Origin: Methanoplanus limicola DSM 2279
GTDB lineage: Archaea; Halobacteriota; Methanomicrobia; Methanomicrobiales; Methanomicrobiaceae
Direction: 5' to 3'
Assembly (NCBI RefSeq): GCF_000243255.1
Contig: NZ_CM001436.1
Location: 1,700,957-1,764,956, forward strand
Length of the DNA stretch: 64,000 bases
The first letter of the stretch is position 1; each line of letters opens with the position of its first letter. Position numbers and translations under genes: made by a program. Positions 30,269-32,677 of this stretch are shown in pieces. The notes beneath the pieces were generated by a model, which ran no database searches, was not told where the DNA came from, and saw nothing but the letters and a program-made list of their open reading frames with translations.

Positions 30269-31180
30269 TTATTTGTCCGAGAGAGGGAAATATTTCCTGT
30301 ACACATCCCTTCTTTCATCAACATCAGTATGCAGATAAACTTCAGTTGTTTTTATCGATGAATGTCCCAGGTTCTCCTGCACAACCCTCAGATTTTTAGA
30401 TCTCCTATATAATTCACTTGCGTAGCTGTGCCTGATCTTATGAGGAGTTATTCCCGCAGGAGCATATTTATTGAAGATATACTGCACAGTTCTTGGCGAG
30501 ATATGCTTTCCCATCTGCCCGACAAATACAGGCCCGGAGATCTTTCCGGCTGTAAATCTGTCTATCTGCTCAAGTGTCTCATCATCTACAAAAACTGTTC
30601 GTATTTTTCCCCCTTTACCTTTTACTTTAATAGTATGATCTTCAAAATCAATGTCATCAATATCTATGGAACATAGTTCAGATACACGGACTCCGGTTGA
30701 ATATATTGTTCTGATTATCAGCCTGTCCCTTTCATCCTGAATAGTATCGAGAAGCCTGACTACCTGATTATGCTTCAGATATTTCAGTTCCTGCTCTTTT
30801 ATTTTGGGCCTGTCAACTCCGGTCATTGGGTTTGCCTCAATGATTCCCTGTTTAAAGCAATACCTGTAAAATGAACTTAAAGAGGAGATTATTCTGTGAA
30901 GGGTAGCCGGTTTGTATTCTCTCAATGCCATAATGTAAGCCAGAAAATCGTTTATCATTACTGGAGTTGTATCCACTTCAGTATCAAGTCTGGCTTTACT
31001 AAAGTCAGACCAGTACATATGAAGTTTATCTTCACCTTCATTTCTTCTTATCCAGAGGTAATATCCAAATTTTTTTACAGAACCTTCATAACTTTTTATT
31101 GTTCTATATGAGTAATTTCGCATTCTGAGGTGGTGTGAGAAGCGTTTTAGCCAATCTGAAAAATAATCTCCTTTCATCAT
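30269..31180 (-). CDS. xerA: XerA-type tyrosine recombinase
   Basis: Site-specific recombinase of the XerC/XerD family; archaeal XerA resolves chromosome dimers at dif. An N-terminal SAM-like DNA-binding domain (about 1-110) precedes the catalytic domain, where all active-site residues are visible: R165 in STGVRVSEL, a Lys near 190 in VKGKGGKIR, H247 and R250 in HKIRH, H273 in GHSSIKTTE and nucleophile Y282 in EVYLH. At 303 residues it has the size of a housekeeping Xer, with no integrase extension. A 28-bp dif-like site lies 31-58 bases upstream of its start. Nothing viral is nearby. Confidence 0.92.
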   Translation of the reverse strand: MMKGDYFSDWLKRFSHHLRMRNYSYRTIKSYEGSVKKFGYYLWIRRNEGEDKLHMYWSDFSKARLDTEVDTTPVMINDFLAYIMALREYKPATLHRIISSLSSFYRYCFKQGIIEANPMTGVDRPKIKEQELKYLKHNQVVRLLDTIQDERDRLIIRTIYSTGVRVSELCSIDIDDIDFEDHTIKVKGKGGKIRTVFVDDETLEQIDRFTAGKISGPVFVGQMGKHISPRTVQYIFNKYAPAGITPHKIRHSYASELYRRSKNLRVVQENLGHSSIKTTEVYLHTDVDERRDVYRKYFPLSDK

Positions 31181-31210
31181 TTATTTAGTTAAATCTCCAA
31201 TATAATAAGG

Positions 31211-31238
31211 ATTTCGTAGAATACCTATTCTGCGCAAA
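31211..31238. other. dif: Candidate dif recombination site
   Basis: A 28-bp sequence of two 11-bp arms around a 6-bp centre: ATTTCGTAGAA, TACCTA, TTCTGCGCAAA. The arms are inverted copies at 8 of 11 positions. The 11-6-11 layout, the ATT start, the AA/TT borders of the core and the AAA end match the Pyrococcus abyssi dif site that I know. It lies directly upstream of the xerA-like gene. Function is inferred; only the layout is seen. Confidence 0.6.
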
Positions 31239-31675
31239 AACTTCGAATCATATATGGGGGATATTTTCGGTAATAATTATCGGTTGGATGGCGATATGTT
31301 GCCGGAAGAATTCTGATAAAAGGATGATTTATCTGTGTACTGGCTCTGATTGAATTACTGAATTAATCTCAGCTGATTTTTCAGTAATACTGTTTTTTTG
31401 ATACTTATTTGGGTTCTTTTTAGTAATAATCTGTGAAATCAAAATTAAGCCCCATATATTGCCATCAATCCCAAATAGGATGTTTGGGATGGATATTAAT
31501 CCAAAAGTCCAACACAATGGATATATGTGAATGTTTATTTGGAGAACATTTTCTAAATTCTAAATTTTTCATTTGATTGAAATAATTATCAAGTAATTTT
31601 TTTCTTTGCTGCAAAATATTATTGATGTATTCTCCGGATATTTTCCACTTCAGGAACTGCAAATTAAAAGATCAA
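31239..31675. other. Gene-free segment between dif-like site and repeat array
   Basis: AT-rich, no convincing gene. Its main feature is a stem-loop: ATCCCAAA (31468-31475) and TTTGGGAT (31483-31490) form a perfect 8-bp stem around 7 bases. This extends past one mismatch by ATC/GAT (31464-31466, 31492-31494). T-runs are present near 31396 and 31599. Short minus-strand frames of 62-65 codons overlap each other in different frames and have no recognisable content. Confidence 0.45.
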
Positions 31676-32677
31676 AACAGACAGCAATGATCTGACGAAC
31701 AAATCAGGTAACACTATGTAACTCAAATATTTATCCGCTAAAAATCAGATTTATCTTCAAATTTAAGGACATATACCACCACAATATCTTTAAAGCCATC
31801 CAGATGCTCAGCTACAGATCTCCCTTCTCCAGCCCCCATTATGTTTCAATCCAAAATCCCGGTTGCCGGATCCAGGATTTATTGATGTTCAAACAGACAG
31901 CAATGATCTGACGAACAAATCAGGTAACATTATGTAACTCAAATATTTATCCGCTAAAATCAGATTTATCTTCAAATTTAAGGACATATACCACCACAAT
32001 ATCTTTAAAGCCATCCAGATGCTCAGCTACAGATCTCCCTTCTCCAGCCCCCATTATGTTTCAATCCAAAATCCCGGTTGCCGGATCCAGGATTTATTGA
32101 TGTTCAAACAGACAGCAATGATCTGACGAACAAATCAGGTAGCATTATGTAACTCAAATATTTATCCGCTAAAATCAGATTTATCTTCAAATTTAAGGAC
32201 ATATACCACCACAATATCTTTAAAGCCATGCAGATGCTCAGCTACAGATCTCCCTTCTCCAGCCCCCATTATGTTTCAATCCAAAATCCCGGTTGCCGGA
32301 TCCAGGATTTATTGATGTTCAAACAGACAGCAATGATCTGACGAACAAATCAGGTAACACTATGTAACTCAAATATTTATCCGCTAAAATCAGATTTATC
32401 TTCAAATTTAAGGACATATACCACCACAATACTGTTGCAGCCATACGGATGTTCAGCTATAGATCTCCTTTCTCCAGCCCCCATTATGTTTCAATCCAAA
32501 ATCCCGGTTGCCGGATTCAGGATTTATTGATGTTCAAACAGACAGCAATGATCTGACGAACAAATCAGGTAACATTATGTAACTCAAATATTTATCCGCT
32601 AAAATCAGATTTATCTGCAAATTTAAGGACATATACCACCACAATATCTTTAAAGCCATGCAGATGCTCAGCTACAG
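31676..32677. repeat. Tandem array of 215-bp direct repeats, about 4.7 copies
   Basis: Copies are phased by CAATGATCTG at 31685, 31901, 32116, 32331 and 32546, giving periods of 216, 215, 215 and 215. The first copy has one extra A; the fifth stops after GCTACAG at 32677. Copies differ at only a few bases, except that part of copy 4 (about 32431-32466) has a cluster of substitutions. Each full unit contains an imperfect stem: CAAT-CCA-AAATCC opposite GGATTT-ATTG with CCGG-TTG-CCGG between. The length is not a multiple of three and stop codons occur, so the array is non-coding. Confidence 0.95.

Follow-up and report, generated by a model that had tools for sequence, protein, structure and literature searches.

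A 28-bp sequence laid out like a dif site lies immediately upstream of a recombinase gene in Methanoplanus limicola, and it raises the question of whether recombination takes place there, whether the sequence controls the neighbouring gene, or both. In the window, by which we mean the whole 64,000-nucleotide stretch of DNA that was analysed, the 28-mer ATTTCGTAGAA-TACCTA-TTCTGCGCAAA (forward-strand reading) occupies exactly positions 31211-31238, as a preliminary description of this DNA had proposed; in the sense of xerA, on the minus strand, it reads TTTGCGCAGAA-TAGGTA-TTCTACGAAAT. Its layout is that of an archaeal dif, 28 bp with two imperfect inverted 11-bp arms and a 6-bp centre, and the inversion at 8 of 11 arm positions claimed earlier is borne out by the sequence. 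Like an archaeal dif it is single-copy, being found once in the window and once in the whole 3,200,946-bp genome even when up to three mismatches are allowed. The features of the locus are the following.

30269..31180, minus strand: xerA, a 303-aa tyrosine recombinase (NF040815; best solved relative P. abyssi XerA 4a8e)
31200..31209, minus strand: putative TATA box of xerA (CTTATTATAT), its function suggested by sequence and by the constant spacing from site to start
31211..31238, minus strand: probable dif site, 28 bp, 11-6-11 (single copy in the genome; same palindrome before xerA across the order)
31211..31221, minus strand: promoter-proximal arm, TTCTACGAAAT in the xerA sense (half-site retained elsewhere; fixed spacing to the gene)
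31222..31227, minus strand: 6-bp central, putative crossover region TAGGTA (identical paired centres around inserts in three relatives)
31228..31238, minus strand: promoter-distal arm TTTGCGCAGAA (the invariant columns of 43 aligned sites show dyad symmetry)

Between the site and mutS the window also contains a tandem array (31675-32677) in which a 215-bp unit is present in 4.7 copies with 96% matches; a 29-mer of this unit has five occurrences in the genome, every one of them in the array.

The neighbouring gene encodes an archaeal XerA, its product scoring 269.3 bits against the model NF040815 recomb_XerA_Arch (cut-off 220), while the XerS model gives 110 bits, below its cut-off of 267. The closest solved structure is P. 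abyssi XerA (4a8e, E 2.9e-32), with which the catalytic residues R, K, HxxR, H and Y align. By its nearest relatives the gene belongs to the Methanomicrobiaceae. The site lies 30 bases before the first xerA ATG, which upholds the earlier placement beside the start of a complete XerA-like recombinase gene; the start codon of the relatives aligns with a second ATG, 3 bases further in.

The two sequence arguments first offered for a dif, palindromy and likeness to the P. abyssi site, are insufficient alone. Arm pairs inverted at 8 or more of 11 positions occur at 163 of 63,973 window positions, so the palindromy is at chance level and was rejected as evidence. The border pattern in common with the P. 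abyssi dif likewise carries no weight, because the site is identical to that dif at 14-15 of 28 positions and 341 positions in the window agree with it at 15 of 28 or more. The evidence lies in conservation.

The same palindrome precedes xerA in all 16 of the first xerA relatives with upstream DNA, and the comparison of upstream regions suggested by the preliminary description finds the site conserved throughout the order Methanomicrobiales. Of 97 good genomes of the order, 95 have a match to a 28-bp model built from 43 aligned sites, usually at a single place, and all 97 have XerA; the compared genomes include several draft or metagenome assemblies. Exceptions to one strong place per genome are pairs of sites that flank inserts and a second, weaker site in G053, G058 and G073. 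The invariant columns of the 43 sites are dyad-symmetric, and in 12 members of the family the arms carry 1.70 bits per column on average, compared with 0.25 for the 90 bases upstream of them. In the various families of the order the site takes the forms TTTGCGCAGAA-N6-TTCTGCGCAAA, GTTTCGCAGAA-N6-TTCTGCGAAAT, CTGTCGCAGAA-N6-TTCTGCGACAA, ATTGCGGGGAA-N6-TTTACCGCAAT and ATTGCGCATAA-N6-TTATGCGCAAT. The two arms tend to change jointly from family to family (GCATAA/TTATGC in f6 g20, GTCGCAGAA/TTCTGCGAC in f3), which is the expectation if one protein reads each arm. Outside the order, in family f14, 11-6-11 palindromes (GTGTCGATAAATAGTAATTTATCGACAT, ATGTCGTAAAATACCTATTTTGCGACAT) also lie before xerA (L145:1358 and L146:2459), which suggests that the xerA/dif module may predate the order.

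Natural insertions in three relatives (G085, G441 and G011) bear directly on recombination. Each of these genomes carries a hybrid site before xerA and a second hybrid site upstream, in direct orientation, with 8466 bp, 8697 bp and 8759 bp between them. The six-base centres at the two ends of each insert are identical within a genome and different between genomes (TAGACA, TACCTA and TGACTA, in the reading direction of each locus), and the sequence flanking the outer site in G085 and in G441 matches that found right next to the uninterrupted site of a sister genome, G093. These identical centres and the matching outer flank indicate that each insert sits between two halves of a site and that crossover took place in the centre. 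The strand exchange within the 6-bp centre is thus read from insert junctions in relatives rather than from the window's own site, and it favours the dif reading put forward earlier. The inserts are listed together here.

L232:1133-9626, L255:7002-15726 and L242:4489-13275: 8.5-8.8-kb provirus-like elements at dif, with an STIV-B204-like packaging ATPase

The three inserts have collinear genes in common, and their ATPase matches the packaging ATPase B204 of STIV (E 1.1e-6). It is found in only 3 of 232 genomes of the order, always at this site, and the phage records and IMG/VR yielded no relatives of it. A XerA-like gene was sought and not found in the inserts of G085 and G011, nor did the scanned ORFs of the inserts show a recognisable integrase domain. 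A serine recombinase beside the G085 insert was considered as its integrase and rejected, because it is also present in the empty-site genome G093 and is therefore host flank. Elements with no recognised integrase of their own, inserted between two dif halves, correspond to the integrative mobile elements exploiting Xer (IMEX) of bacteria, and the host XerA may have integrated them.

A full Methanomicrobiales dif-like site also occurs at L254:4948-4975 in a 41.5-kb tailed-virus-like contig, IMGVR_UViG_3300037104_000552, whose terminase-like and helicase-like (MCM-like) genes were named by eye from translations. Two further IMG/VR contigs with the core motif (L252 and L253) scored low and were judged to be chance matches, and a symmetric GCATAAT pattern is seen in 28 IMG/VR contigs.

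It is conceivable, if quite improbable, that the sequence is an attB site for the recombinases of mobile elements, conserved as a promoter element and with no housekeeping role in dimer resolution. Elements do integrate at the site in three genomes, the virus-like contig carries a full copy, and the position of the site in the host genome is not terminus-like. In this genome the site lies 43 degrees from orc1-1, the smallest value among 25 single-contig or near-complete genomes, in which the angle has a median of 106 and a range of 43-170 degrees; orc1-1 is here assumed to mark the origin, and some genome lengths are rounded. A Kolmogorov-Smirnov comparison of the 25 angles with a uniform distribution gives p=0.004, with kinship ignored. 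Across the order the site tends to avoid the origin, yet it does not lie at 180 degrees, and its position speaks against the dif reading as well. GC skew in 40 sampled 12-kb stretches changes sign near orc1-1 and is too weak to place the terminus. For the Thermococcales, angles of 122-142 degrees are given in PMC2958812. Against an attB reading stand the failure to find a XerA-like recombinase in the G085 and G011 inserts or to recognise an integrase in the scanned genes, the conservation of the full palindrome in genomes free of inserts, and the universal presence of XerA in the good genomes of the order.

The site is also closely tied to the xerA promoter. The TATA-like stretch CTTATTATAT directly abuts it, and the xerA transcript is probably leaderless. 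Across the order, sites adjacent to xerA keep a constant distance to the conserved FSEW motif, 44-45 nt to YFSEW (48 nt where the FSEW motif match starts one codon later). Since a recombination site alone needs no fixed spacing, the promoter-proximal arm probably doubles as an element of the xerA promoter. Generic promoter elements do not account for the arm: in 544 kb of the host genome its 10-mer TTCTGCGCAA has a single occurrence, at the site itself.

In some genomes the full site and the promoter have come apart. Six f6 g13 genomes have the full site 0.6-1.3 kb upstream of xerA, with one arm (ATTCTGCGCAAT) at the promoter. In G069 the full site is about 0.8 kb from xerA, with an apparent coding sequence between them, and in G117 and G099 it is on a different contig from the gene. 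A half-site (TTCTGCGCAAT, TTCTGCGCAAA or TTCTGCGAAGT) remains at the xerA promoter in each uncoupled case, and the full palindrome has been uncoupled from xerA in at least four lineages. These splits indicate that either element, full palindrome or promoter arm, is retained in the absence of its partner. The full site of G099 flanks a decayed copy of xerA; this is a draft assembly, and the split is possibly a binning artefact. Two side observations concern the same regions. In the g13 genomes (L080-L086) a conserved element, CTATAAACCATATGATGCTATAT, lies between dif and xerA, and a similar stretch is present in L239. Contigs C4 and C86 of G109 (L209 and L243) have a common sequence that ends midway through a dif-like site, after which the two differ; it looks as though alternative junctions coexist there.

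These arrangements bear on the proposal that the palindrome is a transcriptional operator only, with xerA under the control of XerA or of some other homodimeric regulator and with no recombination. A promoter role is likely, given that the distance to the xerA start does not vary and that an arm stays behind at the promoter. An operator alone is nevertheless very improbable, since it leaves unexplained why full palindromes persist with no xerA directly behind them (f6 g13, G069, G117 and G099), why one of them lies beside a decayed xerA (G099), and why crossover in three genomes falls in the 6-bp centre. We take the sequence for a crossover site rather than a mere operator because the full site survives away from xerA and because the inserts cross over in its centre. 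A chance palindrome or a generic BRE/TATA promoter element has next to no probability left, for although 8-of-11 palindromy is common in the window, conservation across the order is far above that of the flanks, the arm 10-mer is found in 544 kb of the genome only at the site, and conservation and insertions together already refute it.

The 28-bp sequence is very probably the chromosomal dif of the archaeal XerA encoded 30 bases away, and a tyrosine-recombinase crossover site of this kind is the most likely explanation of the locus. One XerA monomer would bind each 11-bp arm, two dif sites would synapse, and strand exchange at the borders of the 6-bp centre would resolve chromosome dimers; that XerA is the acting enzyme and that dimers are resolved here we infer from sequence comparison. 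Because the BRE/TATA region lies directly next to the promoter-proximal arm, XerA on that arm should also govern the transcription of xerA, and autoregulation mediated by the arm would follow. We consider it reasonably likely, with less assurance than for the dif itself, that the dif lies in the xerA promoter so that XerA occupancy sets xerA expression, and that small integrase-less tailless viruses integrate through the host XerA as archaeal counterparts of IMEX, an arrangement apparently undescribed.

Comparison with known systems places the site closest to archaeal dif sites. Those of P. abyssi, other Thermococcales and M. stadtmanae (PMC2958812, PMC3646895) likewise have 28 bp with 11-bp arms and a 6-bp centre, one per chromosome, and a single recombinase of the XerA family. 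The arm sequence differs from that of P. abyssi, as the counts above show, and the Thermococcales dif lies away from xerA, whereas the Methanomicrobiales dif is within the xerA promoter region. In the Sulfolobales, another phylum, dif is close to xerA, as it is here (PMC2958812), and an archaeal xerA/dif module is mentioned in general terms in PMC5357621; the available parts of these two papers describe no promoter overlap with half-site retention for the Sulfolobales dif. The parallel with single-Xer systems drawn in the preliminary description holds for the layout of site and gene: difSL/XerS and difH/XerH also combine a single recombinase with a genetically linked site (PMC5357621, PMC2731167). 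It fails for the site type and the enzyme family, their sites being atypical (difSL has 31 bp) and their recombinases different, whereas here a symmetric 28-mer accompanies an enzyme that passes the XerA model; the locus is therefore a member of neither system. Bacterial XerCD/dif has the same 11-6-11 layout, and the f6 g20 form ATTGCGCATAA-N6-TTATGCGCAAT agrees with the E. coli dif, whose sequence was confirmed in the literature, at 22 of 28 positions; the bacterial system differs in having two recombinases, control by FtsK and a position at the terminus, whereas here the arms are nearly symmetric and there is one recombinase. Bacterial IMEX such as CTXphi and XacF1 (PMC5666396) are likewise integrase-less elements between two dif halves, and the inserts described here differ in their archaeal host, XerA and STIV-B204-like packaging ATPase. 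The literature searched, with most subscription journals outside it, contained no archaeal element inserted at dif, which argues only weakly for novelty.

Few euryarchaeal dif sites have been published, and in the Thermococcales they lie away from xerA. The sites considered here add a whole euryarchaeal order with a xerA/dif module in which one arm appears to be fixed in the xerA promoter, and autoregulation of a dimer-resolution recombinase is therefore directly testable. With the 28-bp model, dif can readily be predicted in these methanogens and elements integrated at dif can be traced. Moreover, the insertions provide evidence from nature that crossover occurs at the site, and they point to archaeal viruses that may borrow the XerA of their hosts.
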